Assembly (NCBI RefSeq): GCF_041361465.1
Contig: NZ_JBGKAC010000001.1
Span: 1,550,001 to 1,614,000 of the forward strand
Source: Halobaculum sp. MBLA0143
Lineage (GTDB): Archaea > Halobacteriota > Halobacteria > Halobacteriales > Haloferacaceae
Length of the DNA: 64,000 nt
Direction of reading: 5' to 3'
Position numbers and translations under genes: made by a program. How positions within the stretch are numbered: the stretch's first letter is position 1; each line of letters opens with the position of its first letter. Below are positions 5,732 to 37,887 of the stretch, one piece after another. A model generated the notes under the pieces. It saw only the letters and a list, made by a program, of their open reading frames with translations, was not told the DNA's origin and did no database searches.

Positions 5732-5771
5732 AGTGGGCGACGAGACGACAGGACGGTTCCGGACACCTGCC

Positions 5772-8533: not shown

Positions 8534-8602
8534 CGCGGAGAGGGTGTACCGTCACCCACCGCGACCACGGAGTTGAAGTCGTGTCCGACCGTCGACACAG
8601 TC

Positions 8603-9649
8603 GTGCGCGCCGCTATCTACGATGGACCGGGAGAGATCAGTGTCGAGGAGGTACCGCGGCCGGAGATCGAGTCGCCGGGCGACGCGATCGTCAGGGTGAC
8701 ACACACGGCGGTCTGCGGGTCGGACCTCTGGTTCTACCGCGGGGACAGCGACCGCGAGGCCGGCTCTCGTGTCGGCCACGAGCCGATGGGGATCGTGGAG
8801 GAGGTCGGCGACGACGTGGTGAGTGTCGAGCCGGGCGACCGCGTGTTCGCGCCGTTCGTCGTCTCCTGTGGGGAGTGTGAGTTCTGTCGGAAGGGGCTCC
8901 ACACCTCCTGTGTGAACGGCGGCGGCTGGGGCGGCGACAACGGGGGCGCCCAGGGTGAGTTCGTCCGGTCGCCACACGCCGACGGGACGCTCGTCAAGGT
9001 GCCCGACCGCGTCGCCGACGACGAAGACGTGTTGCGGTCGATTCTGCCGCTGACGGACGTGATGGGGACGGGTCACCACGCCGCCGTCAACGCCGGTGTC
9101 GGCCAGGGGGACGCCTGTGCGGTCGTCGGCGACGGTGCCGTCGGGCTGTGTGGCGTCCTCGCCGCGCGCCGACTCGGGGCACGCCGGATCGTCGCCGTCG
9201 GCCACCACCCCGACCGGCTGGCGCAGGCAGAGGCGTTCGGCGCGACGGACACCGTCGACGGCTCCGGCGACACGGACGCCGTCGAACGGGTCCACGAGCT
9301 GACGAACGGCGGCGTCGACCACGTCTTGGAGTGTGTCGGCGCCGCCTCCGCGATGGAGACCGCGACCGGGATCTGTCGCCCGGGCGGGACGGTCGGCTAC
9401 GTCGGCGTCCCCCACGGGATGGACGCCGGGGTCGACCTGTTCGACTTCTTCGGCGACAACATCTCGCTCTCCGGCGGCGTCGCCCCGGTCCGGGCGTACG
9501 CCGACGAACTGCTGGCGGACGTGGTCGGCGGGACGCTCGACCCCGGGCCGGTGTTCACGGAGACGGTCGACCTGGACGGTGTCCCGGAGGGGTACGAGAT
9601 GATGGCCGAGCGGGAGGCGGTGAAGGTGCTCGTCAAGCCACACGAGTGA
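8603..9649 (+). CDS. Zinc-dependent alcohol dehydrogenase (MDR family)
   Basis: About 348 residues of medium-chain dehydrogenase/reductase. Catalytic zinc ligands are Cys38 (TAVCGSD) and His59-Glu60 (VGHEPMG). The structural zinc site CGECEFCRKGLHTSC is intact. The Rossmann segment AVVGDGAVGLCGVLAARRLGA follows. A run of Gly, Trp and Asp after the zinc lobe (GGGWGGDNGGAQGEF) is found in the glutathione-independent formaldehyde/threonine dehydrogenase-like branch. The GTG at 8603 starts the protein at the usual family position (VRAAIYDGPG); an ATG ten codons upstream at 8573 is an alternative. The substrate cannot be told from sequence. Confidence 0.88.
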   Translation: MRAAIYDGPGEISVEEVPRPEIESPGDAIVRVTHTAVCGSDLWFYRGDSDREAGSRVGHEPMGIVEEVGDDVVSVEPGDRVFAPFVVSCGECEFCRKGLHTSCVNGGGWGGDNGGAQGEFVRSPHADGTLVKVPDRVADDEDVLRSILPLTDVMGTGHHAAVNAGVGQGDACAVVGDGAVGLCGVLAARRLGARRIVAVGHHPDRLAQAEAFGATDTVDGSGDTDAVERVHELTNGGVDHVLECVGAASAMETATGICRPGGTVGYVGVPHGMDAGVDLFDFFGDNISLSGGVAPVRAYADELLADVVGGTLDPGPVFTETVDLDGVPEGYEMMAEREAVKVLVKPHE

Positions 9650-12653: not shown

Positions 12654-15600
12654 ATGCCTGATGACGACTCTCCGGATCACGAAGACTTCCAGCGGGCACT
12701 CGGTGAGCTTCTCCCGGTCGTCCCAGTCGTCTCACCGTCGTACCTGGCAGAGGGTGTCGGCTGTACCCAGGCCGAGGCTCGTGCATGGCTGCACGGACAG
12801 TGGAGCGAAGGTGAACTCCACCGCCGCAAGATTGGCGGGTCGACTTTCGTCTACTATCCGAGCGAAGAAAACACAGGTTCGACAGAACAGCCCGCTTCCG
12901 AGGCAGAGTCATCCAAATCTGTCGAGGAAGACACCGACGCCGGTGAACGGGTGCTGTTCTTCCCAGGGCGGCGTGAGATTGCCGTCGACCAGCCGACGGA
13001 CGACACGCGAGAGTCGCTCTCGGGTGTCGCACATCTCGTCGACTCTGCTGCCGACAGCTACCTGTACAAGATAGGCTCGGGGGACGTGTGGACTGCTGCC
13101 GTCGATTCGTTCGACGAACTACGAGAGACCCTCCGTGGTGTCGTTGGTGACGAGAAGTGGGACGGTGGGTTCGAGAGTCGGATCGAGGACGACTGGCGGC
13201 GCGCACACCAGTTCGAACTCCAGACGGAGACGGACGACGCCGGCCGGGAGTTCACCGTCCTCGAAGCTGAAGATCCAGAGACTGTCGAAAACGTCGTCAA
13301 GCGGAAGCTCGAACACAACGAACACTACACGGAGTTTCTCTCTGAGACCGAGGTACGCCTACGGCGCGGTGCGACCGCGGCGGTGAAAGAACAACTGTAC
13401 GAGGAGGGGTATCCTGCGGTTGACAGCCGCCGAATCGACGAAGGCGAGAGTCTCGACGTCGAACTCGTCCCCGAGATCAGTCTACGCGACTACCAGCAGG
13501 AGTGGATCGACCACTTCGTCGAGCGAAAGGCGGGCGTGTTCGTCGGCCCGTCCGGGTCCGGTAAGACCGTCGCGGCGATGGGTGCGATGGCGGCGGTCGG
13601 CGGCGAGACGCTGATAATCGTCCCGAATCGGGAGCTAGCCGGGCAGTGGCAGGAGGAGCTGTTGGAGAAGACGACGCTCGAACGCGACCAGATCGGGCAG
13701 TACCACGGCGGGCAGAAGCGCATTCGGCCGGTGACGATTGCGACGTACGACACCGCCGCGATGTCGAGACACCGGGAGCTATTCAACGAGCGGGAGTGGG
13801 GGCTCGTGGTCGCAGACGAGTGCTTCAGCGGCGACACAGAGGTCGTCACCGAGTCCGGTCGCACTACGTTTGCCGAGCTAGACGACGAGCACGGCTTCTC
13901 TGAAGGGTGGACGGAAGGTGTCGATCTCTCCGTGCAGACGTACGATCCCAATGTGGGAGAGTACCACATGACAGAGGTGACAGGAGTCTACAAGACGACA
14001 GCTCCGGTACAGCGCATCGCCACCGACGACGGTCGAGAGATCACAGCCACGCCGTCGCACACGCATTTGATCTACAACCCGGAGACAGCAGAAATCGAGG
14101 AGTCGAAGACGCTCTCGGAAGGCGACTGGCTCGTCTACCCCAGGAGTCGGAACGTTCGCCTGTCGGGCGACTACTCCCACCCTGCGGCGGAGCTGACAGG
14201 GTGGATGATCGGTGACGGGAGCATGACCGACTCCGGGGCGATGAAGTTCTCGTTTGCCAAGCGCCCAGAAGAGCAGGCGTCGGTCGTCAAGCGTCTGTGC
14301 GATGCTCTGGATCTCGACTACTCGACGTACTGGAACGACCGCGGCGACTACACCGTCCGTGTCCCGGCAACCGACAAACTCCCGTACGACGGCACTCCAG
14401 GAGCGAAGACGAACACCGTCCGTATTCCGGCGGAGTCGTACATGTGGTCGGAAGAGAGAGTCGCCGCACTCGTCCGTGGGCTCTTCGACGCCGAAGGGTG
14501 GGTGGACGAAGAGACGAGCAGAGTGCAGATCGGGACGACATCCCCGGGGCTGTCCCAGGACCTCCGGTTCCTCCTGCAACGCCTCGGGTTCGATCCGCGG
14601 TCGCAGACACTTGAACGTGAGGAGCCTCACGCGGACATGCACCGCCACGTTCTCTCTCCCGAGCAGTCGTGGGAGTTCGTGGACATCGTGGGCAGCAGAT
14701 TCGTGCACAAACGCGAGAACGTCAACTCAGACGGTGGGACGAACAGAGGGATTCCCACAGCAGGGCTGTTCGAGTCGGTGAAGACGGAGCTGGGTGTCAC
14801 GAACGAGACCCTCGCAGAGATGCTCGGGATGAGTCGACAGGGAGTGGGTGAGGCGATTCGCGAAGAGTACGAGTACCCTGCCCAGGAGCTGCTTGGACTC
14901 GCCGACGGCCTGGAGCGTCTGGCGCTCGAAACGCTCGAGGGGGCCGAAGCAAAACGGAAGCACTGGAATATCTCGTATGCGGAGCTGTCAGAAGCATCGG
15001 GCGTCGACATGAGCTACTGCCGGAAGCTACTCGAAGGAATCCACGATGCCCCCGAGACGACCGAGCGGGTCGAGCGTGCTCTCGAGACAATTGTAGAGCA
15101 GCGTCGTTCGGCGGCGACGGAGTACGCCGAGCGAATTCGCTCGTTGGCGAACTTCGGGGTCACCCGCGTGACCGACATCGAACCGGCCGGCGAGGAGACG
15201 GTGTACGACTTCGAGACGGAGACGCACACGTTCGTCGCCGACAACCTCCTCACCCACAACTGCCATCACGCCGTCGCAAACACTTGGAAGCGGTTCCGAG
15301 AGATCCAGTCGGTCGCCCGGTTGGGGCTATCTGCGACGCCCGTCCGGGAGTCTGGTGACGCGAAGGAAATCTTCTCGCTTATTGGGCCACCGGTGGGACA
15401 ATCGTGGAGCCGACTGTTCAGAGAAGACTGGGTGGCAGAACCGTCCGTCGAACTATTGCTCGTTCCCTGGGGATCGGACGCGGCACGGACCCGGTACGAA
15501 CGAGCGGAAGGTGCGAAGAAGTTGATCGAAGCTGCCCGAAACCCGAGGAAGTCCGAGGTGATCGAGGAGCTTCTTCGAGAACACGACGAGGAGAAGACGC

Positions 15601-15986
15601 TGATCTTCGTCGACTGGATCCGGCAGGGGCGCGAACTGTCCGAACGCCTCGGGATTCCGTTCGTCTACGGCGAGACGAGTCACGACCGACGACAGACGAT
15701 TTATCAGCAGTTTCGTGACGGCGCGATGGACGCACTGATCGTCTCTCGTGTCGGCGACGAAGGCTTAGACCTCCCCGACGCCGAGGTTGCGATTCTCGCG
15801 TCGACGATGGGATCCTCGCGGTCGCAGACGGGCCAGCGCGTTGGCCGGACGATGCGTCCGATGGGGAACGCGAAGGTGTACATCCTCCTGACGAGGGGGT
15901 CGAGCGAAGAGGACTGGGGCCGAGAGAGCACCCAATACCTCGCAGAAAAGGGGATCGACATCGAGAAACGTGAGCTAGATGGGTGA
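12654..15986 (+). CDS. XPB/Rad25-like superfamily 2 DNA helicase interrupted by an intein
   Basis: An 1110-residue precursor. Mature helicase parts are residues 1-389 and 870-1110. The N-terminal region (about 10-70) looks like a winged helix; a basic/acidic middle region leads to motif Ia-type SLRDYQQEW and Walker A GPSGSGKT (298-305). Motif II would read ADECHH once spliced; motif III-like LSATPV and motif VI QRVGRTMRP follow the intein. The order and spacing match archaeal XPB-type helicases that open duplex DNA with ATP. The ATG at 12654 follows a TATA-like box; upstream sequence in frame is shadow of the ABC genes. Codon use is less GC-biased than in neighbouring genes. No Bax1-type nuclease gene is adjacent; instead winged-helix genes follow. 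Confidence 0.85.
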   Translation: MPDDDSPDHEDFQRALGELLPVVPVVSPSYLAEGVGCTQAEARAWLHGQWSEGELHRRKIGGSTFVYYPSEENTGSTEQPASEAESSKSVEEDTDAGERVLFFPGRREIAVDQPTDDTRESLSGVAHLVDSAADSYLYKIGSGDVWTAAVDSFDELRETLRGVVGDEKWDGGFESRIEDDWRRAHQFELQTETDDAGREFTVLEAEDPETVENVVKRKLEHNEHYTEFLSETEVRLRRGATAAVKEQLYEEGYPAVDSRRIDEGESLDVELVPEISLRDYQQEWIDHFVERKAGVFVGPSGSGKTVAAMGAMAAVGGETLIIVPNRELAGQWQEELLEKTTLERDQIGQYHGGQKRIRPVTIATYDTAAMSRHRELFNEREWGLVVADECFSGDTEVVTESGRTTFAELDDEHGFSEGWTEGVDLSVQTYDPNVGEYHMTEVTGVYKTTAPVQRIATDDGREITATPSHTHLIYNPETAEIEESKTLSEGDWLVYPRSRNVRLSGDYSHPAAELTGWMIGDGSMTDSGAMKFSFAKRPEEQASVVKRLCDALDLDYSTYWNDRGDYTVRVPATDKLPYDGTPGAKTNTVRIPAESYMWSEERVAALVRGLFDAEGWVDEETSRVQIGTTSPGLSQDLRFLLQRLGFDPRSQTLEREEPHADMHRHVLSPEQSWEFVDIVGSRFVHKRENVNSDGGTNRGIPTAGLFESVKTELGVTNETLAEMLGMSRQGVGEAIREEYEYPAQELLGLADGLERLALETLEGAEAKRKHWNISYAELSEASGVDMSYCRKLLEGIHDAPETTERVERALETIVEQRRSAATEYAERIRSLANFGVTRVTDIEPAGEETVYDFETETHTFVADNLLTHNCHHAVANTWKRFREIQSVARLGLSATPVRESGDAKEIFSLIGPPVGQSWSRLFREDWVAEPSVELLLVPWGSDAARTRYERAEGAKKLIEAARNPRKSEVIEELLREHDEEKTLIFVDWIRQGRELSERLGIPFVYGETSHDRRQTIYQQFRDGAMDALIVSRVGDEGLDLPDAEVAILASTMGSSRSQTGQRVGRTMRPMGNAKVYILLTRGSSEEDWGRESTQYLAEKGIDIEKRELDG
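13821..15260 (+). other. Intein with LAGLIDADG homing endonuclease inside helicase motif II
   Basis: A 480-residue intein at precursor residues 390-869. It begins with Cys in CFSGDTEV, has a block B TPSHTHL, two LAGLIDADG-type motifs (LTGWMIGDGS and LVRGLFDAEGW), two helix-turn-helix-like stretches (around LAEMLGMSRQGVGEA and YAELSEASGVD), and ends VYDFETETHTFVADN then LLTHN. The next extein residue is Cys. Splicing joins ADE to CHH, restoring the DExH box, so ATPase activity depends on splicing. All terminal splicing residues look intact and both endonuclease motifs retain the acidic residue. Confidence 0.93.
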
Positions 15987-15989
15987 ATA

Positions 15990-16010
15990 ACTTACACTTG
16001 GAGTGTAAGT
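15990..16010. repeat. 9-bp perfect hairpin after the helicase stop
   Basis: acttacact (15990-15998), loop tgg, then agtgtaagt (16002-16010) is a perfect inverted repeat 4 bp after the helicase stop codon. Flanking ggtg and cacc extend it with a bulge. It may be a terminator-type RNA hairpin or an operator in front of the winged-helix operon. Confidence 0.6.
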
Positions 16011-16023
16011 CACCCCCGCCTTC

Positions 16024-16053
16024 GATGGCGTTTTGAAGGCTTCAAATCCCATC
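16024..16053. repeat. Second imperfect hairpin before the winged-helix operon
   Basis: gatgg (16024-16028) and ttttgaag pair with cttcaaa and ccatc (16040-16053) around a one-base loop. It stands 14 bp after the first hairpin and about 60 bp before the next start codon. Confidence 0.45.
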
Positions 16054-16115
16054 TTCAGCTAGATGTCAGAGTAAGTAGAAAAAGACATAAGTCATAGTGG
16101 GTCTAGCTGCCGTCT

Positions 16116-16508
16116 GTGACGGACGAGATGAAATTCGAGGATCTCCTCGTGGACGAAGAGGAAGTCAACGAGGAACTCCTCACCGAGACCGTGATCGACT
16201 ACGTGCAGATCGGTGAGCAGAGCGGAGAGTTGATCCCGAAGCCTGCGTACGACGACCTCACCGCGAAAGAGAAGATTGTCGTCGCGCTGCTCGCACACCG
16301 CGCGCGGTTCGGCTTGGACATGGTTGAAGACGAGTGGATCAAGCCGGGAGCAATCGCCTCGATGACGGGTGTCAAGAAGGGGACCGTCTACCCCACCGTC
16401 CGCGATCTGGCAGACGATGGGATCGCACGGAACTCCGACGACGGGGGATACATGATCCCGTCGGTGAACGTCGAGCAGGCGCGAGAGTACCTGAGAGGTG
16501 ATGCGTGA
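16116..16508 (+). CDS. Winged-helix domain protein, first of the helicase-linked set
   Basis: A 130-residue protein. Residues 1-45 are acidic and probably helical; about 50-115 form a winged helix: LTAKEKIVVALLAHRA, an insert, then KPGAIASMTGVKKGTVYPTV as recognition helix and a wing GYMIPSV. The same pattern, including the preceding short strand-like segment, is seen in the N-terminal half of the protein encoded at 16914, so the two are paralogues at domain level. The GTG at 16116 follows a TATA-like gacataag by about 27 nt, suggesting leaderless mRNA. The stop overlaps the next start (TGATG). DNA or protein binding is inferred; the family is unnamed to me. Confidence 0.72.
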   Translation: MTDEMKFEDLLVDEEEVNEELLTETVIDYVQIGEQSGELIPKPAYDDLTAKEKIVVALLAHRARFGLDMVEDEWIKPGAIASMTGVKKGTVYPTVRDLADDGIARNSDDGGYMIPSVNVEQAREYLRGDA

Positions 16509-16927
16509 TGTCAGGCGAAGAACAGACGGTCACCGATCTCGCGGCGGAGGTCGACGACCTCCGGGAGCGCGTCGAACACCTGGAGGCACTGATCGAGGAA
16601 GACCCGGAGTCAGTCGGAGCAGCGCCGGACGTCTCGTCGTTCGTCGCCGACGCCGACCCGTCGTCACACCCCGAGCGTGCGCTGCTCTTGGCCTACTATC
16701 TCGAACAGTACGAGGGACAGGAGACGTTCACGACAGGCGACATCGAGGATGGGTACAGTGAGGCCCGGATGCAGACGCCGGCGAACCTCAGTGACACGCT
16801 CGCGGGTTGTCGGCGGAAAGGCTGGCTGCTGGAGGCTGGCGAAGACGAGGAGACACAGGCCAAGCTGAGACGGCTCACGAGAGGCGGAATCGAGGCCGCC
16901 GAGGAGATGACCGATGAGCCTCGATGA
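16508..16927 (+). CDS. Coiled-coil plus winged-helix-like protein
   Basis: A 139-residue protein. Residues about 8-36 form a likely coiled coil (LAAEVDDLRERVEHLEALIEE shows heptad spacing), followed by a linker and a C-terminal domain from about 55: ERALLLAYYLEQ, FTTGDIEDGYSEA, then LSDTLAGCRRKGWL and a RLTRGGIEAAEE end. This domain resembles the C-terminal domain of the convergent gene product at 17778-18398 in length, helix order and the RALL start. ATG at 16508 shares bases with the previous stop; the end overlaps the next gene by 14 bp, indicating coupled translation. Function unknown. Confidence 0.7.
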   Translation: MSGEEQTVTDLAAEVDDLRERVEHLEALIEEDPESVGAAPDVSSFVADADPSSHPERALLLAYYLEQYEGQETFTTGDIEDGYSEARMQTPANLSDTLAGCRRKGWLLEAGEDEETQAKLRRLTRGGIEAAEEMTDEPR

Positions 16928-17774
16928 TCGTATCCGAGACGAGATGGTGGTGGAGAGCCGGTCCCAGCTCGAAGAGAACTTCGAGAGGGTCAGTGATCTG
17001 ATCGATGTACGACAGGACGGGTCGGTCAGAGTGGGCAACGGTGACGAGTTGACCTGGAAGCAACGTGCGCTGCTCATCCTCATCGGTTCCCGGTTAGCAC
17101 ACGAAGCGGACGCAGCAGACAGCCCTGAGATCAGTTACTCTGAACTGTACGGTCGGCTCGACATCTCGAGTTCGTCCGTTCGTAATTTCATCGGCAGCCT
17201 CCACGATCAGGAAGTCGTCAAAAAGCCCGACGGGGACTGGATCTACCGTCCGGTCGATCTCTCGGGGGTCAGTGGTGTCGACCTCCCGAGACAGGATCTC
17301 GAACAGCCGAGCGAAGAGGACGACTCGTTCCTCGGCGATGTCGAGCCGCGAGAGCCGTCCTACGAGGATCTCGTCGAGAGTGTAGAGCGGACGTACGCGA
17401 GCGGGCTCTACAGTGCGACGATGATCCTGACCCGGAAGCTGTTCGAGAATCTCCTCGTCGACATCATGCGAGGTCACTACGGTGTCGGTGACTCTCTAGA
17501 CGAGTTCTACGACGAGGATCGTGGTCGGTTCAATGGGTTCGCCGTAATTCTCGAAAACTTTGGCGAGAACGCTCAAGCGTTCAACCCTTACGACACCTCT
17601 CTGGCACAAGGTAAGTTCCTCAGCGAGATCGACGACTTCAGAGAGGAAGCAAACGCTGACGCACACTCTATCAGTACTACTCGTAGCAGCGAAGAGATGG
17701 AGGAGTACTCACGCAAGGCGAGGAGGATTGCAAAGGTGCTGTTTCACGCGAAACGGCGCGCAGTAGAGGAGTAG
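16914..17774 (+). CDS. Winged-helix protein with HEPN-like C-terminal domain
   Basis: A 286-residue protein with two parts. Residues about 45-115 are a winged helix (LTWKQRALLILIGSRLAHEA, then ISYSELYGRLDISSSSVRNF and a DGDWIYRP wing), paralogous to the protein at 16116. After an acidic linker, residues about 149-282 are helical: YEDLVESVERTYASGLYSA, ILTRKLFENLLVDIM, and FREEANADAHS with Arg243 and His251, ending in basic helices. Helix pattern and the Arg...His arrangement recall HEPN or DUF4145-type domains, but Arg and His are seven residues apart rather than four to six, so RNase activity is doubtful. Likely an adaptor or effector of this block. Confidence 0.7.
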   Translation: MSLDDRIRDEMVVESRSQLEENFERVSDLIDVRQDGSVRVGNGDELTWKQRALLILIGSRLAHEADAADSPEISYSELYGRLDISSSSVRNFIGSLHDQEVVKKPDGDWIYRPVDLSGVSGVDLPRQDLEQPSEEDDSFLGDVEPREPSYEDLVESVERTYASGLYSATMILTRKLFENLLVDIMRGHYGVGDSLDEFYDEDRGRFNGFAVILENFGENAQAFNPYDTSLAQGKFLSEIDDFREEANADAHSISTTRSSEEMEEYSRKARRIAKVLFHAKRRAVEE

Positions 17775-28177: not shown

Positions 28178-29485
28178 ATGAGTGTCGACACACACACTGA
28201 CGGATGGACCGAGGAGACCCCACAGACGGACTTCCTGGCACGCTGTCGAGACGCCGAGGCGGGGACGATCGTGGAGACGGCCGCAGACGAGATCCGCGCC
28301 GCGCTGTCGCGGGTGCCCGACGGCGACGCGACGGTCGCGTGGCTCCAGGCACAGAGCTGTTCGGGCTGCACCGTCTCTACGCTCCAGAGCGAGTTCCCCC
28401 GGATCGAGGGGGTGCTCGGTGAGTTCCGCGAGGCGGCGAGCTTCCACCCCACGCTGATGGCAGCGGCGGGCGAGGAGGCGATGGACGCGCTGGCGGAGCC
28501 GCCGGACGTGTTGATCGTCGAGGGGTCGGTGCCCGTAGAGACGCCGTTGGCGGCGACGCTCGGCCGCGACGAACGGGGCAACCGCAAGCCAGTCTTGGAC
28601 TGGGTCGTCGAGCTGGGGGAGGCGGCAGACATCGTCGTCGCCGTCGGCACCTGTGCGGCCTACGGCGGGCTGCCGGCGGCGGGTCGCCACGACAGCGACG
28701 ACGGCGTCGGCACGGACCCGACCGGCGCGCGCGGGCTCCAGTTCGACGGCCGAGAGCCCGGCGGCGTGTTCGGCCCGGCGTTCGAGACGGGCCGTGGGCT
28801 GCCGGTCGTGAACGTCCCCGGCTGTCCCGCCCACCCGGAGCACGTCCTGTTGACGCTGGCGACGGTGCTGGCGGGCCACGATCCCGAACTGGACGAGTAC
28901 AACCGCCCGTTGCCGATCTTCGGGCCGCTCGTCCACGACGACTGTGCGCTCCGGGAGGAGTACGAGGCCGGCAACTTCGCCCAGTACCCCGGCGACGACG
29001 GCTGTCTGTACGACCAGGGGTGTGCCGGCGTGTACAGCTACTGTGACGACTCCGTCCGGCTCCGCAACGGCGGCACGACGATCTGTCGCCGGGTGGGGGC
29101 GCCGTGCATCGGCTGTGTGGAGCCGGCGTTCTGGGACCGGTTCACCCCCTTCTACGAGCCTGGCGAGGACGACGGCTGTGCCGGCGCCGACGCCCCCTCC
29201 GTCGGCGAGGTGAACGCCGACGACGACCCGACGGAGATGGCCGCCGTCGGGTGGCTGTCGGCTGGGCTGGCGAGCGTCGTCACACTCCCGTTGGCGCCGG
29301 TCGCGGCCGGCGTGGGCGCCGTCGGTCGGTTCTTCGGCGACGACGACGGCCACACGGTGTCGACGGAGTGGGACGAGAGCGCCTCCGCCGCCGGGTCTCC
29401 GGCCGTCACCGACGGTGGACCGTGTGGCGACTGCGCGGCCACCGGAGCGACGGACCGGAGGGACGAACGAGGAGGGGGTGAGTGA
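28178..29485 (+). CDS. [NiFe] hydrogenase small (FeS) subunit, group 1-like
   Basis: A 435-residue subunit that carries electrons from the NiFe site. Proximal-cluster ligands: CSGC (Cys61, Cys64), GTCAAYGG and PGCPAHPEH. Distal cluster: HDDC then CLYDQGC. Medial cluster: C near VYSYC, CRR and CIGCVEPAFWD. So three clusters are expected, as in uptake (group 1/2) enzymes. Residues about 357-380 are a hydrophobic helix after the last cluster, as in membrane-bound group 1 proteins, followed by a 55-residue tail with GDCAATGATD. The N-terminus (MSVDTHTDGWTEE) has no twin-arginine signal. ATG at 28178; stop overlaps the large-subunit start by 4 bp. Confidence 0.93.
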   Translation: MSVDTHTDGWTEETPQTDFLARCRDAEAGTIVETAADEIRAALSRVPDGDATVAWLQAQSCSGCTVSTLQSEFPRIEGVLGEFREAASFHPTLMAAAGEEAMDALAEPPDVLIVEGSVPVETPLAATLGRDERGNRKPVLDWVVELGEAADIVVAVGTCAAYGGLPAAGRHDSDDGVGTDPTGARGLQFDGREPGGVFGPAFETGRGLPVVNVPGCPAHPEHVLLTLATVLAGHDPELDEYNRPLPIFGPLVHDDCALREEYEAGNFAQYPGDDGCLYDQGCAGVYSYCDDSVRLRNGGTTICRRVGAPCIGCVEPAFWDRFTPFYEPGEDDGCAGADAPSVGEVNADDDPTEMAAVGWLSAGLASVVTLPLAPVAAGVGAVGRFFGDDDGHTVSTEWDESASAAGSPAVTDGGPCGDCAATGATDRRDERGGGE

Positions 29486-31017
29486 CCGTGCCGGAGATCG
29501 AGATCGACCCGACGACGCGGATCGAGGGCCACCACTCCACCACGCTGCACGTCGAGGACGGCGAGGTCGCCCGTGCGGAAAGCGAGATGAACATGTTCCG
29601 TGGGATCGAGAGCGTCACCCACGGCCGGGCGCCGTCGGACGTGCCGCAGGTGACACAGATGGTGTGTGGCGTCTGTTTCACCTGTCACCGGCAGGCGGCG
29701 ACACTCGCCTTGGAGGAGGCAGCCGAGCGGGCCGGGGTGTTCGACGGCGTGCCGCCGAACGGCCGGCTCCTGCGCGACGTGATGGAGGCGACGTTCCTGT
29801 TGTGGAACCACGCCGTCCACCTGTTCGTGCTCGCGGGGCCGGACTACTCCGACGCGGTCGCAGACACCGGGTTCGACAGACTCGACCCCGCGGACGGCGA
29901 CGGCTACCGGACGGCGCTGGAACACCAACGGTCGTTGCTCCAGGCGTTCACGGAGTTCGGCGGCCGTGCCCCCCACCCGCTGACGTACGTTCCCGGCGGC
30001 GTGACGGCGGACCCGGACCCGGAGACGGTCGGCGAACTCCGGGAGACCGTCGCCGGGTTAGACGAGTGGCTCGGCCCGACGGACGCGCTGCCGGCGACGC
30101 TGGAGCGGGCCCGCGACCGCGACCCGGTCGGGGACCACCCCGGACTGTACGACCTCTGTTCCGTGCTCGTGGGCGCGAGCGAGGCGGGTGCAGACGGGTT
30201 CGGGGTCGGCCCCGGACGGTTCTACGCCAACGGGATGTTCTACGGCACGGACGGGGGTGACGACCACGTCCTGCCGCGGGGGGTCGTCGACGGGGACGGC
30301 CGCCGGCGGCCCTCGCGGGCGGAGCTGATCGAGGGGATCACGGAGGACGTGAGCCACGCGTGGTACACGGCAGCCTCCGGCGGCCGGATGGACGAGGCGC
30401 CGGCGCCGACGCCCGAACCGGACGAGGACGGCGCCTACTCCTGGGGGAAGGCGCCCCGCTACCACGGCGAGACGATGGAGACAGGACCGCTCGCACGACT
30501 CGTCGCGGCCGACCGAGACCCACACGGCCTGCGCGAGCGGCTCGGCAACGACGAGACGGGGTCGTCCACGTTCGACCGGCTGGCCGCCCGGGTGCAGGAG
30601 ACACTGCTCGTCCGAGACTACCTCCGCGAGTGGCTGGAGGCGGTGGATCCGGACGCGCCCGTCCGGGCGGCGTGGACCGACGAGTTCAGCGGCAACGGCG
30701 TCGGGCTGTGGGGTGCCTCTCGGGGGGCGCTGTCCCACTGGGTCAGTGTCGACGACGGAGCGGTCGACGCCTACCAGATCGTCACGCCGACGACCTGGAA
30801 CCTCGGCCCGCGGGACGGAGACGGCACTCCAGGGGTGTTCGAGGCGGCCGTCGAGGGGACACCCGTCTCGGACGTGTCGGAGCCGACGGAGGTGATGCGG
30901 ACGATTCGGTCGTTCGACCCGTGTCTGGGCTGTGCCGTCCACGTCGAGAGCCCCGAAGAACGGTTCGAGACACAGATCCAGCCGCACGCGCCCGGCGCCG
31001 GGGGTGACCGCGGGTGA
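29482..31017 (+). CDS. [NiFe] hydrogenase large (NiFe) subunit, group 1-like
   Basis: A 511-residue catalytic subunit that splits or makes H2. L0 TTRIEGHH is at residues 11-18; L1 MVCGVCFTCH gives NiFe ligands Cys62 and Cys65 (with an extra Cys68 where most have other residues); L2 FDPCLGCAVH gives Cys481 and Cys484 with His487. Around L2 the text TPVSDVSEPTEVMRTIRSFD is close to group 1 enzymes. The 24 residues after His487 should be cut off by the maturation protease encoded next. Start GTG at 29482 (or 29488) overlaps the small-subunit stop. The protein length is a little below the usual 550-600, and acidic loops are longer, as in halophiles. Confidence 0.94.
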   Translation: MTVPEIEIDPTTRIEGHHSTTLHVEDGEVARAESEMNMFRGIESVTHGRAPSDVPQVTQMVCGVCFTCHRQAATLALEEAAERAGVFDGVPPNGRLLRDVMEATFLLWNHAVHLFVLAGPDYSDAVADTGFDRLDPADGDGYRTALEHQRSLLQAFTEFGGRAPHPLTYVPGGVTADPDPETVGELRETVAGLDEWLGPTDALPATLERARDRDPVGDHPGLYDLCSVLVGASEAGADGFGVGPGRFYANGMFYGTDGGDDHVLPRGVVDGDGRRRPSRAELIEGITEDVSHAWYTAASGGRMDEAPAPTPEPDEDGAYSWGKAPRYHGETMETGPLARLVAADRDPHGLRERLGNDETGSSTFDRLAARVQETLLVRDYLREWLEAVDPDAPVRAAWTDEFSGNGVGLWGASRGALSHWVSVDDGAVDAYQIVTPTTWNLGPRDGDGTPGVFEAAVEGTPVSDVSEPTEVMRTIRSFDPCLGCAVHVESPEERFETQIQPHAPGAGGDRG

Positions 31018-31709
31018 CCGTCGTCGACGGGGACACGGCGGCGACGACTGTAGACGGGGAACTGGCGGCCGCGAACGGCGTCGTCGTCGGTGTCGGCAAC
31101 CCGACGCGGGGTGACGACGGCGTCGGCCGAGCGGTCGTCCGGGCGACGGAGGGCGTGCCGGCGACGTTCGCGTCCACGACCGCCTTCTTCGCCCTGGAGG
31201 CGGCAGACGGGCGCGACCACGCGGTCGTCGTCGACGCCGTCGACGGCGACGGGCTCCCGGGGACGATCCACCGCTACCGGCTGGACGCCGGCGACGACGC
31301 CGTCCCGCGGGTGGCGCTCCACGACGTGACGTTCGCGGACGCGCTGGCGGCCGGCGACGACGTGTACGACCTCCCCGATCGGCTCGTGTTGCTGGGGGTG
31401 GTCCCGGAGAGTCTGGAGACGCGAATCGGACTGAGCGACCCGGTCCGGCGGGCGGTGCCGGCAGTGGCGACACTCGCCCGCGCGGAGCTGGTCGAGACGA
31501 CGCCACACGACGGCGGTGACACGACCGTGGACACGACCTGGTACTGTCAGGACTGTGAGGAACGGATCGACGCGGGTGCGGTGTCGAACCACGAGGAACG
31601 GGGCCACAGCGTCCGTGGGCGGGCGCGCCCGGACCGTCTCCTCTCGGACGACCCCTGGGCGCTCGGGGGCGGAGAGGAGAGCGAAGGCGGTGACGGAGGT
31701 GACGACTGA
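31014..31709 (+). CDS. Hydrogenase maturation protease with C-terminal zinc-finger extension
   Basis: A 231-residue endopeptidase of the HycI/HyaD/HybD family that removes the large-subunit C-terminal peptide after nickel insertion. The core (about 20-160) shows GVGNPTRGDDGVG with acidic Asp34/35, VVVDAVDG with Asp74 and ALHDVTF with His103, the three expected metal-sensing residues. The family usually stops near 160. Here residues about 160-231 are added and hold YCQDCEERIDAGAVSNHEER followed by GH: Cys178, Cys181, His193 and His198 form a CxxC...H...H zinc-finger pattern. GTG start overlaps the large-subunit stop by 4 bp. Confidence 0.9.
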   Translation: MTVVDGDTAATTVDGELAAANGVVVGVGNPTRGDDGVGRAVVRATEGVPATFASTTAFFALEAADGRDHAVVVDAVDGDGLPGTIHRYRLDAGDDAVPRVALHDVTFADALAAGDDVYDLPDRLVLLGVVPESLETRIGLSDPVRRAVPAVATLARAELVETTPHDGGDTTVDTTWYCQDCEERIDAGAVSNHEERGHSVRGRARPDRLLSDDPWALGGGEESEGGDGGDD

Positions 31710-31945
31710 TGTGTCTGGGCGTCCCGGGCGAGGTGCAGGAGGTGGACGGCCAGGAGGCGTTGCTGTCGTTCGACGGCGCCGAGAAGTGGGTTCGCGTGGA
31801 CGTGGTCGGCGACGACGTAGAGGCGGGCGACTACGTCCTGGTCCACGCGGGATTCGCAATCCGGCGCATCCCGGAGGCACAGGTGGAACGCACCCGCGAG
31901 CTGTACGCGGAGGCGGCCGCGGCGGGCGCCGGTGGTGTGTCGTGA
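31709..31945 (+). CDS. hypC: Hydrogenase maturation chaperone HypC
   Basis: A 78-residue HypC/HupF protein. It begins MCLGVPGEV with the essential Cys2 that, with HypD, carries the Fe(CN)2CO group to the large subunit. The rest is the family beta-barrel (VRVDVVGDDVEAGDYVLVHA and GFAIRRI) and an Ala-rich tail. Its ATG shares one base with the previous stop (TGATG) and its end overlaps hypD by 4 bp, so stoichiometric co-expression is likely. Confidence 0.95.
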   Translation: MCLGVPGEVQEVDGQEALLSFDGAEKWVRVDVVGDDVEAGDYVLVHAGFAIRRIPEAQVERTRELYAEAAAAGAGGVS

Positions 31946-33027
31946 CGACCCTGGAGTTCCGCGACCCGGAGCGAGCCCGCGAGCTCCGGGCGCGGCTGTC
32001 GACGCTCGTGGACCGGATCGACGGCGACACCCGGGTGATGCACGTCTGTGGCTCCCACGAGGAGGCCATCGCGGAGTTCGGGCTCCGGTCGGTGCTGCCC
32101 GACGGGCTCCGGGTGGCGATGGGACCGGGCTGTCCCGTCTGTGTCACCGACCGGCCGGAGGTGGACGAGGCGGTCGCGCTCGCGGAGGCGGGCCACACGG
32201 TCGCCACCTACGGCGACATGGTTCGGGTGCCCGGGACGGAACGGAGCCTGGCAGACGCCCGCGCGGCCGGAGCAGACGTGCGGACGGTGTACGGCGCCGA
32301 CGAGGCCGTCGAGATCGCCCACGAGACGGACGCGGAGGTGGTGTTCTTCGCCACCGGGTTCGAGACCACCGCGGCGCCGACCGCGACCGTGCTCCGGGCG
32401 GACCCGCCGGAGAACTTCTCCGTCCTGTCTGCCCACAAGTACGTCCCGCCGGCCATGGACGTGGTGGCGGGCCACCCGGAGACTCGGATCGACGGGTTCC
32501 TGGCGGCCGGTCACGCCGCGACGATCACCGGAGTCGAGCCGTTCGAGGGTGTCGTGGAGCGTCACGGCCTCCCGGTCGTCGTCGCCGGGTTCGAGCCGTT
32601 GGACCTGTTGGCCGCGCTCGTGTTCCTGTTGGAGGACGTCGCCGACGGGACGCCGACCGTGACGAACGCCTACCCGCGGTGTGTCGCCGACGACGGCAAC
32701 CCGGCGGCACGGGCCGCGCTGTCGGAGGCGTTCGTCCGGGTGCCCGGGGAGTGGCGCGGCGTCGCACGCGTGCCGGACGCCAGCTTCGAGATCGCGCCGG
32801 CGTACGCCGCCCACGACGCCCGCGAGCGGTTCGACCCGGAGACGCCGGCGCCGGACGGCCGGGCGAACGCCTGTCGCTGCGGAGAGATCATGGCCGGGCG
32901 GGCGAGCCCCCGGGACTGTCCGTTGTTCGGCCAGGGGTGTACCCCCGACGACCCCGTCGGGGCGTGTATGGTCGGCGAGGAGGGGCCGTGTCGCATCCAA
33001 CACGAGTACGGGGGTGAGCGGCCGTGA
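31942..33027 (+). CDS. hypD: Hydrogenase expression/formation protein HypD
   Basis: A 361-residue FeS protein that assembles the Fe(CN)2CO unit with HypC. Conserved Cys motifs are present: HVCGSHE near residue 35, GPGCPVC near 66, and the [4Fe-4S] region near the C-terminus with CRCGEIMAG, DCPLFGQGC and GACMVGEEGPC. GFETTAAPTA is the conserved central motif. GTG at 31942 (GTGA overlap with the hypC stop) is the natural start because the upstream frame is the shadow of the protease gene. The end overlaps hypE by 4 bp. Confidence 0.95.
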   Translation: MTTLEFRDPERARELRARLSTLVDRIDGDTRVMHVCGSHEEAIAEFGLRSVLPDGLRVAMGPGCPVCVTDRPEVDEAVALAEAGHTVATYGDMVRVPGTERSLADARAAGADVRTVYGADEAVEIAHETDAEVVFFATGFETTAAPTATVLRADPPENFSVLSAHKYVPPAMDVVAGHPETRIDGFLAAGHAATITGVEPFEGVVERHGLPVVVAGFEPLDLLAALVFLLEDVADGTPTVTNAYPRCVADDGNPAARAALSEAFVRVPGEWRGVARVPDASFEIAPAYAAHDARERFDPETPAPDGRANACRCGEIMAGRASPRDCPLFGQGCTPDDPVGACMVGEEGPCRIQHEYGGERP

Positions 33028-34112
33028 GCGAGGAGGTCGTCACGGCCGCCCACGGCGCCGGCACGGAGGCGACGGCCGATCTCGTCGACCGACTCCTGGG
33101 CGACCGGTTCGGCGGTGGCGAGGGGGGAGACGCCGGCGACGGCGACGCTGGCGGCGCCGGCGGCGCCCTCCCTGCCGGCGCCGTCGGGCTGGCGGCCCGC
33201 GACGACGGCGCGGTCGTCCCGGACGCCACGACCGGCGACGAGACGGCGACCGCGACGGTCGTGAGCACGGACAGCCACGTCGTCCAGCCGCCGGTCTTCC
33301 CGGGCGGGGACGTGGGGCGACTCGCGGCCGCCGGCACGGTCAACGACCTCGCCGCGATGGGGGCGACGGACGGCGTGACGCTGTCGAGCGCGCTCGTGAT
33401 CCCGGCCGGCACGCCCGTCGACACCGTCGAGACGGTGACGGCGTCGATGGCGGCGGTGTGTGAGACGGCCGGCTGCACGCTCCGGACGGGCGACACCAAG
33501 GTCGTCGGCGCGGACGAACTCGACGGCCTGGTCGTGACGACCACCGGCGTCGCCCGGGTGGACCCGGCGGACACGCTGCCCGCGAGCGGGCTGTCGCCGG
33601 GCGACCGGCTCGTGGTCACCGGGCCGGTCGGCGACCACGGTGTCGCCTTACTCGCCGCCCGCGAGGGGTTCGACTTCGAGACAGCCCCCGAGAGCGACGC
33701 CGCGCCGACGGCGGGACTGCTGCGGGCCGCCCGCGAGGCCGGGGAGATCACGGCCGCGACCGACCCCACCCGTGGCGGGCTGGCGAACGCCGTCAACGAA
33801 CTGGCGGCCGCGAGCGACGCCGGCGTCGTGTTGGACGAAGAGACTCCGGTCGCGGACGACACCCGCGGCGCCGCGGAGGTGCTGGGGGTCGACCCGCTGA
33901 CGGTCGCCTGCGAGGGGCGGCTCGTCGTCGGGGTCGACGCCGACGACGCCGAGACGGTCGTCGACCGGCTCCGCGACACCCCCGGCGGCGAGGGTGCGGC
34001 CGTGATCGGCCGGGTCGTCGACGACCACCCCGGCGACGTGGTGTTGGACACCGGAATCGGCCGACGGTACCTCTCCGTGCCGACCGGGGAGCGAGTCCCG
34101 CGGATCTGCTGA
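33024..34112 (+). CDS. hypE: Hydrogenase expression/formation protein HypE
   Basis: A 362-residue PurM/ThiL-like enzyme that dehydrates the carbamoyl group on its own C-terminal Cys to a thiocyanate, the source of the CN ligands. The protein ends VPRIC, exactly the required terminal Cys. Motifs for ATP and metal include STDSHVVQPPVFPGGDVG, GTVNDLAAMGA and ATDPTRGGLANAVNE. A Gly/Ala/Asp-rich insert at about 33-55 lies before the first conserved motif. GTG at 33024 overlaps hypD by 4 bp. Confidence 0.95.
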   Translation: MSEEVVTAAHGAGTEATADLVDRLLGDRFGGGEGGDAGDGDAGGAGGALPAGAVGLAARDDGAVVPDATTGDETATATVVSTDSHVVQPPVFPGGDVGRLAAAGTVNDLAAMGATDGVTLSSALVIPAGTPVDTVETVTASMAAVCETAGCTLRTGDTKVVGADELDGLVVTTTGVARVDPADTLPASGLSPGDRLVVTGPVGDHGVALLAAREGFDFETAPESDAAPTAGLLRAAREAGEITAATDPTRGGLANAVNELAAASDAGVVLDEETPVADDTRGAAEVLGVDPLTVACEGRLVVGVDADDAETVVDRLRDTPGGEGAAVIGRVVDDHPGDVVLDTGIGRRYLSVPTGERVPRIC

Positions 34113-34495
34113 TGCACGAACTCGCCGTCGCCGAACGGCTGGTCGCCCGCGCCCGCGAGGCCGCGGACGACGCCGGCGCCGACCGCGTCACCGGGCTGAC
34201 GGTCGCGGTCGGCGAGGCCACCCACCTCGCGCCCACACAGCTCCGCTTCTGTCTGGAGGCGGTGACGGACGACCTGCTCGCGGACGCGACAGTGTCGTTC
34301 GAACGAGTGCGGGCCCGTGGGACGTGCGACTGCGGCTGGCGGGGCGAACTGGACCGACTCCCGGAGACGGTCGCGGCCGCGCCGGAGCGCCGGTGTCCGG
34401 CGTGTGACGGCACCGTGACCGTGACCGCCGGCCGGGAGTGTCGACTGGAGCGGATCACTGTCCCGGACGACGGCTCACCGAACGACACCGACTGA
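34112..34495 (+). CDS. hypA: Hydrogenase nickel incorporation protein HypA
   Basis: A 127-residue nickel chaperone. It starts MHELAVAERL with the nickel-ligand His2 and carries the zinc site CDCGW and CPACDG; the first pair is CxC rather than the usual CxxC. With HypB it loads nickel into the large subunit. ATG overlaps the hypE stop (TGATG); hypB follows 2 bp later. Confidence 0.93.
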   Translation: MHELAVAERLVARAREAADDAGADRVTGLTVAVGEATHLAPTQLRFCLEAVTDDLLADATVSFERVRARGTCDCGWRGELDRLPETVAAAPERRCPACDGTVTVTAGRECRLERITVPDDGSPNDTD

Positions 34496-34497
34496 CC

Positions 34498-35604
34498 ATG
34501 TACGAGACACACACCTCGATCGGAACACCGACGCACAGGCCCGTGTACAGTTCCACGCACAGACCGACGCACAGTCCGAAACACGCCACGCCGGGGTCGC
34601 TGGCGGGGGCCGTCGCCGACCGAGCACGGCGGCTGCTCGCCCGAGTCACCGACGGGGTCGACGGCGGGGTCTCCCGGGTCGCCGAGGTGATCGACGGCAG
34701 GGTCGCCGACAGCCTCGTCGGCGCGCCCGCACCGGGACCGTCGTCGGCTCACCGGTTCGGCCACGGCGACGACACCGACGGGGAGGCGACGGACACGGAG
34801 GCGGACGTGTTGGCGGCCGTCCGGGACCGGGCCCGGGAGAACCACGAACGGCTCGCCCACGACGCGGACGTGTTCGCCGTCGAACTGCTGGGTGCGACCG
34901 GCAGCGGCAAGACGGCGCTGATCGAGTGGCTGTTGGAGCACGCCCACGACGGCGACCGCGTCGGGGTCGTCACCGGCGACGTGTCCGGCGAGGACGACGC
35001 CGAGCGACTGCGCCGCCACGGTGTCCCGGTCGTGAACGTCACCACGGGGAAGGACTGTCACCTGGACCCACGGCGCGTCGCGGACGCGTTGGACGACGAG
35101 CGCCTCGAACTGGACGCCCTGGACGCCCTGTACGTCGAGAACGTCGGCAACGTCGTCTGTCCGGCGGACTTCCCGCTCGGGACGGCCGTGCGGCTCGCCG
35201 TCGTCTCGCCCACGGAGGGGACGGACGTGGTCCGGAAACACCCCCACCTGTTCCAGGTCGCCGACGCCGTCGCCATCAACAAGACGGACCTCGCGGAGGC
35301 GGTCGGCGCCGACACGGACCGGATGGTCGCGGACGCCCGCCGAATCGCCCCGGACGCGCCGGTCGTGGAGACGAGTGTAGAGACCGAAGCCGGCCTCGGG
35401 GACCTCGTCGACAGCCTGGGAGGGTTCCGGGCCGCCGACTACGACGACGGTGGGCACGCACACACCGACGACAGTGACCACGCGCACGCCGACGGCCACA
35501 CCCACCACGACGACGGTGGGGCGCCCGACCACAGTGACGAGACGCCCGACGACGGCCCGGAGGTGAGACGGGCGGACCACGCGACGGACGGGGGTGAGCG
35601 GTAG
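34498..35604 (+). CDS. hypB: Hydrogenase nickel incorporation GTPase HypB, His-rich at both ends
   Basis: A 368-residue GTPase that drives nickel transfer. Core motifs: LLGATGSGKTALIEWLLEH (P-loop), GKDCHLDP (metal site with Cys and His), YVENVGNVVCP and AINKTDL. Compared with typical HypB of about 220 residues, it has about 110 extra N-terminal residues (opening with THTSIGTPTHRP and further His) and a C-terminal tail of about 60 residues rich in His and Asp (GHAHTDDSDHAHADGHTHH). His-rich stretches store nickel in other HypB proteins, normally only at the N-terminus. ATG at 34498 was chosen because it follows the hypA stop by 2 bp; the frame upstream is hypA shadow. Confidence 0.92.
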   Translation: MYETHTSIGTPTHRPVYSSTHRPTHSPKHATPGSLAGAVADRARRLLARVTDGVDGGVSRVAEVIDGRVADSLVGAPAPGPSSAHRFGHGDDTDGEATDTEADVLAAVRDRARENHERLAHDADVFAVELLGATGSGKTALIEWLLEHAHDGDRVGVVTGDVSGEDDAERLRRHGVPVVNVTTGKDCHLDPRRVADALDDERLELDALDALYVENVGNVVCPADFPLGTAVRLAVVSPTEGTDVVRKHPHLFQVADAVAINKTDLAEAVGADTDRMVADARRIAPDAPVVETSVETEAGLGDLVDSLGGFRAADYDDGGHAHTDDSDHAHADGHTHHDDGGAPDHSDETPDDGPEVRRADHATDGGER

Positions 35605-37887
35605 GTGGCGACCGGCGAGACGGACGCCCGGGAGGCGGTGACGGTCCGGGTGACGGGGACGGTCCAAGGTGTCGGCTTCCGGCCGTTCGTGGCTCGGACG
35701 GCGGCGGCTCACGACCTCGCGGGCGTCGTCCGCAACACGGACCGTGGCGTCCAGATCCGGTTCGAGGGCGCTCCCGGAGCCGTCGGCGACGCGGTCGAGA
35801 CCGTGCGGTCGGACCCGCCGCCGTTGGCGAGCGTAGAGGCGGTGGAGACGGCGACGGCGACGGTGACCGGGGCGACCGACTTCGAGATCGTCGACTCCAC
35901 CGGCGACGAGGAACGGACGACGCTCGTCCCGCCGGACACGGCAATCTGTCCTGACTGTCTGGCGGACCTCCGGGACCCCGGCTCTCAGTTCCACGACTAC
36001 TGGGCGACGGGGTGTGTGAACTGCGGCCCGCGGTTCACCGTGACCGCGGGGCTGCCGTACGACCGCGACCGGACGGCGCTCGCGGCGTTCCCGCCGTGTG
36101 AGGGCTGTCGGGAGCGCTACGAGACGCGGACGGACCGGCGGTTCCACGCCCAGACGGTGGCGTGTCCGGACTGTGGCCCGCGCGTGTCGTTCGAGCCGGG
36201 TGACGACGGCGCGACGGCGACGGGGACGGCCGCGGTCGACGCCGTCGCCGACCGACTGCGCCGCGGCGCGGTCGTCGGCGTCGAAGGCGCCGGCGGCAGT
36301 CACCTCGTCTGTACCGCGACGGAGCCGACGGTGGTCGACCGGCTGCGCGAACGGACGGGACGGGCGAGGAAGCCGTTCGCGGTGATGGCGCCGACTGTCG
36401 ACGCCGTCGAGTCGTTCGCGGCCGTCTCCGCGGAGGAACGGGAGACGCTGACCGACCGCCGGCGCCCCGTCGTCGTCGTCGACCGACTGGAGCGGTCCTG
36501 GCTGGAGTCGGTCGCTCCCGGGCTAGACACGGTCGGCGTGATGCTGCCGTACAGCGGGCTCCACCACCTCCTGTTCGACCGGGTGTCGGCGCCGTTGGTC
36601 GTCACGAGCGCGAACCGGCCGGGAGAGCCGACGTGTACCGAGACGGAGCGGCTCCGTGGGCTGTCGGCCCCGGACGCGCTCCTGACACACGACCGCGAGA
36701 TCGTCAACCGCGCCGACGACAGCGTCGTCCGGGTCGTCGACGGCCGTCGACAGTTCCTCCGGCGCTCCCGCGGGTGGGTGCCCGACCCCATCCCTCGGCC
36801 GGGCGACGCCGGCGACACGACCGCGCTCGGGGTCGGTGCGCGGTCGGACACGACGGCCGCCGCGGCCGCCGACGACCGACTGCTGGCGAGTCAACACGTC
36901 GGGAGAGTGACGGATCCGGCGACGGAGGGGGCCCACCGCGCGGCCGCCGCGACCGTCCGGGAGCTGTTGGACGCCGAGCCGGACGTGGTCGGTCACGATC
37001 TCCACCCGGAGTTCCGGACGCGCGACCTCGCCGCGGCGTACGCCGCAGAGGCGGGCGCGGAGACGGTCGGGGTCTGGCACCACCACGCTCACGCGGCGTC
37101 GCTGCTGGCGGACCACGGCCGCGAGCGGGCGGTCGTGATCGCGGCAGACGGCGTCGGTCACGGGCCGGACGGCGTCGCCCGCGGCGGGGAGGTGTTGGAC
37201 GCGACGCTCGCCGAGAGCGACCGGGTCGGCGGGCTGTCGGAGTTCCGGCTGCCGGGCGGCGACCGGGCGGCCGAACGACCCGGGCGGCTGTTGGCGTCGT
37301 TGCTGGCGGACCCCGACCGAATCGACCGGCTGCTCGTCGGCCGCGACGCCGCTCCGGACCGGGAGACGGCCGCGACCGTCCGCCGGCAGGCCGACGCCGG
37401 CGTCGCCAGCCCGGAGACGACCAGCGCCGGGCGGTTCCTGGACGCCGTCGCCGCACTCCTGGACGTGTGTACGGAGCGACGGTTCCGCGGCGAGCCGGCG
37501 ATCCGGCTGGAGACGGCCGCGAGCGACGGCAGCCCCGTTCCCGTCGCGCCGCCGGTGGACTGGAGCGGCGAGCCGACGTTCGTCGCCGACGAGGCGTTGG
37601 CCCGGCTGGACGAGCTCCGGGACCAGTACCCGACGGCGGACGTGGCCGCGACGGGACAGGCGTTGTTGGCGGACGGGCTCGCCGAGGTTGCCGTCGAGAC
37701 CGCCCGCGAGCGCGGCCGCGAGGCCGTCGGGCTGACCGGCGGCGTCGCACACAACGCCGCCGTCTCCCGCCGGGTGCGGCGGGCCGTCGAGGACGCCGGA
37801 GTGACCTTCCTCGGCCACGAGGCCGTCCCACCGGGTGACGGCGGACTCGCGGTCGGGCAGGCGGTCGCGGCCGCTCGGCGGGTGTGA
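35605..37887 (+). CDS. hypF: Carbamoyltransferase HypF
   Basis: A 760-residue enzyme that moves the carbamoyl group of carbamoyl phosphate to HypE. Domains in order: acylphosphatase (about 10-95, GTVQGVGFRPFVARTAAAHD), two zinc fingers (about 110-200, CPDCLADL...GCVNCG and CEGCRERY...ACPDCG), YrdC-like adenylation domain (about 205-390, KPFAVMA and SANRPGEPT), and Kae1-like domain (about 400-760, WHHHAHAASLLADHG metal site and LTGGVAHNAAVSRR). Length is normal for the family. The GTG at 35605 directly follows the hypB stop, with no gap. It is the last gene of the operon; a convergent phosphatase gene lies 41 bp beyond. Confidence 0.95.
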   Translation: MATGETDAREAVTVRVTGTVQGVGFRPFVARTAAAHDLAGVVRNTDRGVQIRFEGAPGAVGDAVETVRSDPPPLASVEAVETATATVTGATDFEIVDSTGDEERTTLVPPDTAICPDCLADLRDPGSQFHDYWATGCVNCGPRFTVTAGLPYDRDRTALAAFPPCEGCRERYETRTDRRFHAQTVACPDCGPRVSFEPGDDGATATGTAAVDAVADRLRRGAVVGVEGAGGSHLVCTATEPTVVDRLRERTGRARKPFAVMAPTVDAVESFAAVSAEERETLTDRRRPVVVVDRLERSWLESVAPGLDTVGVMLPYSGLHHLLFDRVSAPLVVTSANRPGEPTCTETERLRGLSAPDALLTHDREIVNRADDSVVRVVDGRRQFLRRSRGWVPDPIPRPGDAGDTTALGVGARSDTTAAAAADDRLLASQHVGRVTDPATEGAHRAAAATVRELLDAEPDVVGHDLHPEFRTRDLAAAYAAEAGAETVGVWHHHAHAASLLADHGRERAVVIAADGVGHGPDGVARGGEVLDATLAESDRVGGLSEFRLPGGDRAAERPGRLLASLLADPDRIDRLLVGRDAAPDRETAATVRRQADAGVASPETTSAGRFLDAVAALLDVCTERRFRGEPAIRLETAASDGSPVPVAPPVDWSGEPTFVADEALARLDELRDQYPTADVAATGQALLADGLAEVAVETARERGREAVGLTGGVAHNAAVSRRVRRAVEDAGVTFLGHEAVPPGDGGLAVGQAVAAARRV

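Follow-up and report, generated by a model that had tools for sequence, protein, structure and literature searches.

Papers from 2017-2018 already report [NiFe] uptake hydrogenases of haloarchaea that have hyp genes next to them. They have been described for Halodesulfurarchaeum (PMC5437934) and for the natronoarchaea, in which hydABC, a protease gene and hypA-F are adjacent (PMC6176080), and the haloarchaeal HydABC has been assigned to HydDB group 1a (PMC6176080). The published module comprises hydS with a twin-arginine translocation (Tat) signal, hydL, hydC (cytochrome b), the protease gene, a gene for a small Zn protein and hypCDEABF, in this order; in Natrarchaeobaculum AArc1 it reads hydA-hydL-cytochrome b-protease-'hypothetical protein'-hypC-D-E-A-B-F. 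Here we analysed a hydrogenase operon of Halobaculum sp. MBLA0143, located in a stretch of 64,000 nucleotides (contig NZ_JBGKAC010000001.1, positions 1,550,001 to 1,614,000), the whole of which is called the window below. Its HydS and HydL are homologous to those of Halodesulfurarchaeum and AArc1, with 57.6% identity of HydL to AArc1 and 54-60% to the enzymes of sulfur-respiring haloarchaea, and the protease gene and hypCDEABF follow in the same order. A hydrogenase operon in a haloarchaeon is thus already known and not new. Unlike HydABC, however, the window operon contains no hydC and its HydS no Tat signal (AArc1 HydA has SRRNFLQLAAG), the HydS tail is more hydrophobic, and the Zn-finger is fused to the protease. 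We regard it as fairly probable that the operon encodes a heterodimeric [NiFe] hydrogenase which derives from the exported, cytochrome-b-linked enzyme and would now oxidize H2 on the cytoplasmic side, toward O2. The operon consists of the following elements.

28178..29485, + strand: hydS, [NiFe] hydrogenase small subunit without Tat signal (PF01058 and PF14720)
29482..31017, + strand: hydL, [NiFe] hydrogenase large subunit (PF00374, 2e-82)
31014..31709, + strand: hydrogenase maturation protease with fused C-terminal Zn-finger domain (PF01750, TIGR00072)
31527..31706, + strand: Zn-finger domain 'ZnR' (CxxC..H..H), which has its own gene in operons with hydC (HydC+) (11-sequence model, 1.8e-28)
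31709..31945, + strand: hypC (TIGR00074, above cut-off; starts with MC)
31942..33027, + strand: hypD (TIGR00075, 1e-117, above cut-off)
33024..34112, + strand: hypE (TIGR02124, 3e-89, above cut-off; C-terminal RIC)
34112..34495, + strand: hypA (PF01155, 3e-20)
34498..35604, + strand: hypB (TIGR00073, 3e-67, above cut-off)
35605..37887, + strand: hypF (TIGR00143, 2e-209, above cut-off)

Gene identities in 28178-37887 were assigned with Pfam and NCBIfam profiles, HypD, HypE, HypB and HypF lying above the NCBIfam equivalog cut-offs. A preceding sequence-only reading had described nine tightly packed genes here, and indeed all open reading frames are intact and co-oriented; neighbouring genes overlap by 1-4 nucleotides at six of the eight junctions, abut at one and are 2 nucleotides apart at the remaining one. 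Its assignments to a hydrogenase, to a maturation operon and to a haloarchaeon hold as well, and the set of HypABCDEF plus endopeptidase is complete. The NiFe ligands Cys62, Cys65, Cys481 and Cys484 of HydL are invariant in the alignment, and both Cys2 of HypC and the C-terminal Cys of HypE are present. All 12 ligands for Fe-S clusters in HydS are aligned, too (C61, C64, C159, C216; H253, C256, C276, C282; C289, C303, C310, C313). HydS is predicted to carry three [4Fe-4S] clusters, because Cys303 stands in place of the proline of the classical [3Fe-4S] medial cluster. An O2 tolerance via the six-Cys proximal cluster of group 1d is ruled out, since the aligned HydS shows CSGC and GTCAAYGG at its ligand positions, where the two additional Cys are missing. 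As to the statement that the enzyme should be functional, HydSL, judged from its sequence, looks functional.

The operon had been called complete, too, but by the published standard it is not, as hydC is missing. Neither this gap nor the missing Tat signal nor the fusion of Zn-finger and protease had been noticed in that reading. In a comparison set of 21 loci from a collection of named genomes plus further genomes, we found two main operon types. Most loci combine a Tat signal on HydS with hydC between hydL and the protease gene, whereas the window and nine other loci (n=10) possess neither. A HydC query gave no match in the six genomes with only a Tat-less enzyme of this HydL family (G000, G312, G191, G317, G147, G382), but clear matches in five Tat+ genomes used as positive controls in the same search. 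No match to the cytochrome b561 family was above cut-off in the host genome either, so that a hidden hydC elsewhere in this genome is ruled out by both searches. G335 (L095:8180-11310) and G119 (L096:9316-11444) represent a third operon variant, in which hydL and the protease gene have neither hydC nor a Zn gene nor hyp genes next to them; HydS of G335 keeps its Tat signal (RRGF) and has no tail, and hydS of G119 was not called. Judging by these loci, the absence of hydC arose more than once.

Two segments of HydS differ from the exported enzymes.

28178..28321, + strand: N-terminal segment of HydS, positional homologue of the Tat signal of relatives, charge-rich (TDFLARCRDAEAGTIVET; alignment)
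29228..29335, + strand: C-terminal hydrophobic helix of HydS, residues 351-386 (hydropathy and model; insertion around PLAP compared to Tat+ enzymes)

Instead of the Tat signal RRNFLKLVG..AGSVI of its relatives, HydS encoded at 28178-29485 exhibits TDFLARCRDAEAGTIV. The RR motif occurs in 0/10 Tat-less clade members, RR[ND]F in all aligned HydC+ relatives. The segment is nevertheless still homologous, as RRNFLKLVGxxxAGSVITE of exported enzymes aligns with xPDFLxLVxxxEAGxVVxE of the Tat-less ones, and the rewritten form retains a common DF..[AG]..[VI] pattern across the clade. It contains 4-9 charged residues in Tat-less HydS (6 in 18 residues in the window) compared to 0-3 in exported HydS. 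AlphaFold models it as folded helices, with a predicted local distance difference test (pLDDT) of about 86-91 for residues 21-50; the overall confidence of the model is modest (mean 64.5), so it serves as supporting evidence only. A start further upstream that would restore a Tat signal is ruled out by the lack of any in-frame start codon upstream of 28178 and of a hydrophobic stretch. At the other end, nine of the ten Tat-less HydS exceed the Tat+ relatives in the best 19-residue hydropathy of the tail (1.89-2.74 compared to 0.75-1.71; window 1.89) and have residues inserted around a PL[AL]P motif, which reads PALP in L014. The tail was modelled as a single 36-residue helix (pLDDT about 72-83). 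A re-entrant hairpin, considered on account of the central PLAP, is therefore unsupported.

When 34 HydL sequences were placed in a maximum-likelihood tree, the ten Tat-less loci formed one clade (support 100/99) nested within the Tat+ HydC+ enzymes, with one state change. Its likely sister is the Tat+ HydC+ enzyme of G361 (90/67; the exact sister is less sure). Apart from the window, the clade includes enzymes of Halorientalis regularis, Halovenus carboxidivorans, Natronomonas LUM.42 and Halapricum, with the same losses of Tat and HydC. The Halorientalis, Halovenus and Natronomonas loci share the protease-Zn fusion with the window. In contrast, the Tat-less Halapricum copies either have no adjacent hyp genes or a separate Zn gene, and the one of Halapricum sp. 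CBA1109 is the tenth Tat-less HydS, without a C-terminal tail helix. Three Halapricum genomes contain an exported hydS-hydL-hydC-protease-Zn locus plus a Tat-less hydS-hydL locus. The two losses alone could also be signs of decay, leaving a non-working remnant after the export signal and the partner had gone. This we regard as highly improbable: 10 loci have intact reading frames and metal ligands, the N-terminal pattern is retained, and HydL of the clade members, 63-78% identical to the window, diverged under purifying selection. The ratio of non-synonymous to synonymous substitution rates ranges from about 0.10 to 0.23 for the HydS core and from 0.13 to 0.25 for HydL across comparisons, and from 0.10 to 0.13 and 0.13 to 0.17, respectively, between close Halapricum copies. 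By these values, and because both types are kept in three Halapricum genomes, the Tat-less enzyme is a retained variant and no relic.

Two further observations concern G361. A Cys of the proximal cluster is replaced by Asp in its HydS (CSGDSVS, L068 reverse complement 7872-8972), as it is in archaeon 128-326 (CTADSIS, L033:288-1370). Furthermore, genes that look like anaerobic CO dehydrogenase (CooS) and CooC, named by sequence appearance only, are located directly upstream of the G361 operon (L068 reverse complement 4210-6939), and this neighbourhood suggests a linked CO/H2 metabolism.

The host genome (3.58 Mb, 2 contigs, 97.2% complete) encodes 3 heme-copper oxidases. It contains no PF00384 molybdopterin oxidoreductase and therefore no visible enzyme of this family for sulfur, dimethyl sulfoxide (DMSO), nitrate or formate. 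Halodesulfurarchaeum-type genomes (G046, G061), in contrast, have 9-10 PF00384 enzymes and no heme-copper oxidase. This contrast is clear for the window host and G317 but not universal, as Tat-less genomes have 0-7 PF00384 enzymes. By elimination, from the 3 oxidases present and the PF00384 enzymes absent, O2 is the likely terminal acceptor. A link to aerobic CO oxidation is unsupported, since CoxL has no match in the host and is matched in only part of the clade. The same genome content bears on the view that the operon encodes an ordinary exported HydABC of the kind found in sulfur-respiring haloarchaea, with hydC located elsewhere and an unrecognised export signal. HydL identity and the order of the maturation genes would fit this view. 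It is nevertheless very unlikely, given that HydC is missing from the genome together with the reductases for S0 or DMSO, that the RR motif is missing in 10/10 clade members and the region behind it is charged, and that no in-frame start codon precedes 28178.

The favoured mechanism starts from a Tat-exported, cytochrome-b-linked haloarchaeal uptake hydrogenase, from which, as the sequences show, export signal and cytochrome b were lost in this clade. Because the export signal is lost, the enzyme would remain on the cytoplasmic side of the membrane, where the more hydrophobic C-terminal helix of HydS, as predicted, may insert and hold most members. After maturation by HypABCDEF, with the protease performing C-terminal processing, H2 would most likely be oxidized at the NiFe site. 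Electrons would pass through the three [4Fe-4S] clusters to menaquinone directly or to ferredoxin at the cytoplasmic face, and then to the heme-copper oxidases and O2. The enzyme thus probably works on the inner membrane side in an oxygen-breathing cell.

Direct reduction of menaquinone without a cytochrome b subunit is known from the bacterial hydrogenase Huc (PMC10017518). Huc of Mycobacterium smegmatis (group 2a) is the closest solved small subunit to the window HydS by sequence and fold and, like the window enzyme, is not exported and has no cytochrome b subunit. In contrast to the window enzyme it is built on the HucM scaffold, and its three clusters are [3Fe-4S] (PMC10017518). The solved enzymes nearest to the window HydL are [NiFeSe] and group 1 [NiFe] hydrogenases (224 bits to [NiFeSe], 183 to Huc), the periplasmic enzymes of Desulfovibrio being the best match. 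These are periplasmic and contain selenocysteine in some cases, whereas the window enzyme has Cys481 and no export signal. As no HucM gene is found in the operon and HydL is nearer to the group 1 enzymes, we place the window enzyme outside the Huc group; by analogy it could work similarly.

Several points weigh against the proposed cytoplasm-facing, membrane-held enzyme. The operon contains neither an electron-acceptor gene nor a HucM-like gene (no HucM search of the genome was made). HydS resembles Huc only marginally more than it resembles [NiFeSe] enzymes, and for HydL the [NiFeSe] enzymes are closer than Huc. HydS of G335, Tat+ without adjacent hydC, demonstrates that loss of HydC alone is no proof of loss of export. 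Finally, going by the tail-less sequence of Halapricum sp. CBA1109, membrane attachment is not essential clade-wide.

Alternatively it might be that the enzyme is a cytoplasmic, mainly H2-evolving redox valve coupled to ferredoxin when oxygen is exhausted. The loss of the Tat signal implies the placement needed, the predicted all-[4Fe-4S] relay is compatible with low-potential acceptors, one member (L017) is tail-less and predicted to be soluble, and Halapricum retains a second, exported copy. We consider this rather unlikely, as the membrane-type helix in 9/10 members would be needless for a purely ferredoxin-linked enzyme, and no ferredoxin or diaphorase gene is present in the operon. A role as H2 sensor instead of an energy enzyme has to be considered, too, because the absence of a Tat signal is shared by known regulatory [NiFe] hydrogenases. 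These usually have no C-terminal extension of the large subunit, whereas HydL retains the extension as well as its own protease, and no kinase or regulator gene occurs in the operon; we consider a sensor highly improbable.

The C-terminal part of the window protease matches a separate small open reading frame of relatives. In HydC+ operons this small Zn protein (54-91 amino acids, WYCTDCExxIDxxxIxxHExxGHxVxGxxRPDRLL) is encoded between the protease gene and hypC, e.g. at L018:12868-13044. It is labelled 'hypothetical' in AArc1, and a Pfam search with it gave no family above cut-off. Fusions to the protease are found in the window, Halorientalis, Halovenus, Natronomonas, G312 and G382 loci. Strong matches to the Zn protein (E <1e-17) were detected in 25/27 genomes bearing the HydL family and in 0/364 of the others among 391 Halobacteria. 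From this co-occurrence, the Zn-finger fused to the protease probably serves as an accessory domain specific to the hydrogenase, making the Zn-finger protein a candidate maturation factor. A more far-reaching reading is that of a distinct cytoplasm-facing, cytochrome-b-free lineage which evolved once from the exported enzyme, passes electrons of H2 straight to the quinones in aerobic haloarchaea in convergence with Huc, and uses a new dedicated Zn-finger maturation domain. We hold this reading only tentatively, as less likely than not.

The HydL family (E <1e-150) is present in 27/391 surveyed Halobacteria genomes, 9 of which, the window host included, have the type without Tat and HydC. With this frequency, and with such operons already published (PMC5437934, PMC6176080), the earlier remark that hydrogenases are unusual in haloarchaea is correct only in part. 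The Tat-less, HydC-less branch is apparently undescribed. We found no account of the clade in literature on Halapricum, Halovenus carboxidivorans and Tat-less haloarchaeal hydrogenases, which is weak evidence of novelty as few subscription journals were covered. Undescribed group 1 clades including Halobacteriota have been mentioned, without detail in the main text (PMC11018855). Very divergent proteins resembling [NiFe] large subunits (open frames of 659-719 amino acids) occur in other haloarchaea as well (L058, L059, G148, G315, G282, G239, G307, G299, G259).

The coding style of the operon had been taken as an argument against recent transfer. This argument is weak, since a high-GC (guanine plus cytosine) haloarchaeal donor would leave no compositional trace; with a GC content of 0.739 the operon lies slightly above the other window genes (0.694). 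Three congener genomes contain no match to the hydrogenase, and in the congener G001 conservation of the left flank extends as far as window gene 27125, directly beyond which unrelated genes follow. In the tree the window HydL groups with sequences of Haloarculaceae and Natronomonadaceae, and Haloplanus ruber, Halonotius aquaticus and Halohasta salina of the same family as the host all have Tat+ enzymes. Acquisition by transfer is the simpler reading than loss in the congeners. In Halonotius aquaticus, homologues of the left-flank genes 24837, 25256, 26521 and 27125 (L019:4417-6323) and the Tat+ operon are about 2.5 kb apart, which may point to a shared insertion neighbourhood. Elsewhere in the window, 12654-17774 shows a lower GC content (0.59-0.63) and contains an open reading frame of 1110 amino acids.

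So far, haloarchaea are known to use H2 in the anaerobic respiration of sulfur or DMSO, by means of an exported enzyme linked to cytochrome b. The clade described here suggests that a respiratory hydrogenase can be turned toward the cytoplasm and kept in oxidase-bearing genomes, in the window host without any PF00384 reductase. The Zn-finger protein offers a concrete, as yet unstudied candidate for a maturation factor. If H2 is oxidized in air, aerobic haloarchaea would join the H2 scavengers, and nature would offer in this clade a clean example of how a respiratory enzyme switches membrane sides, with Halapricum providing both forms for direct comparison.

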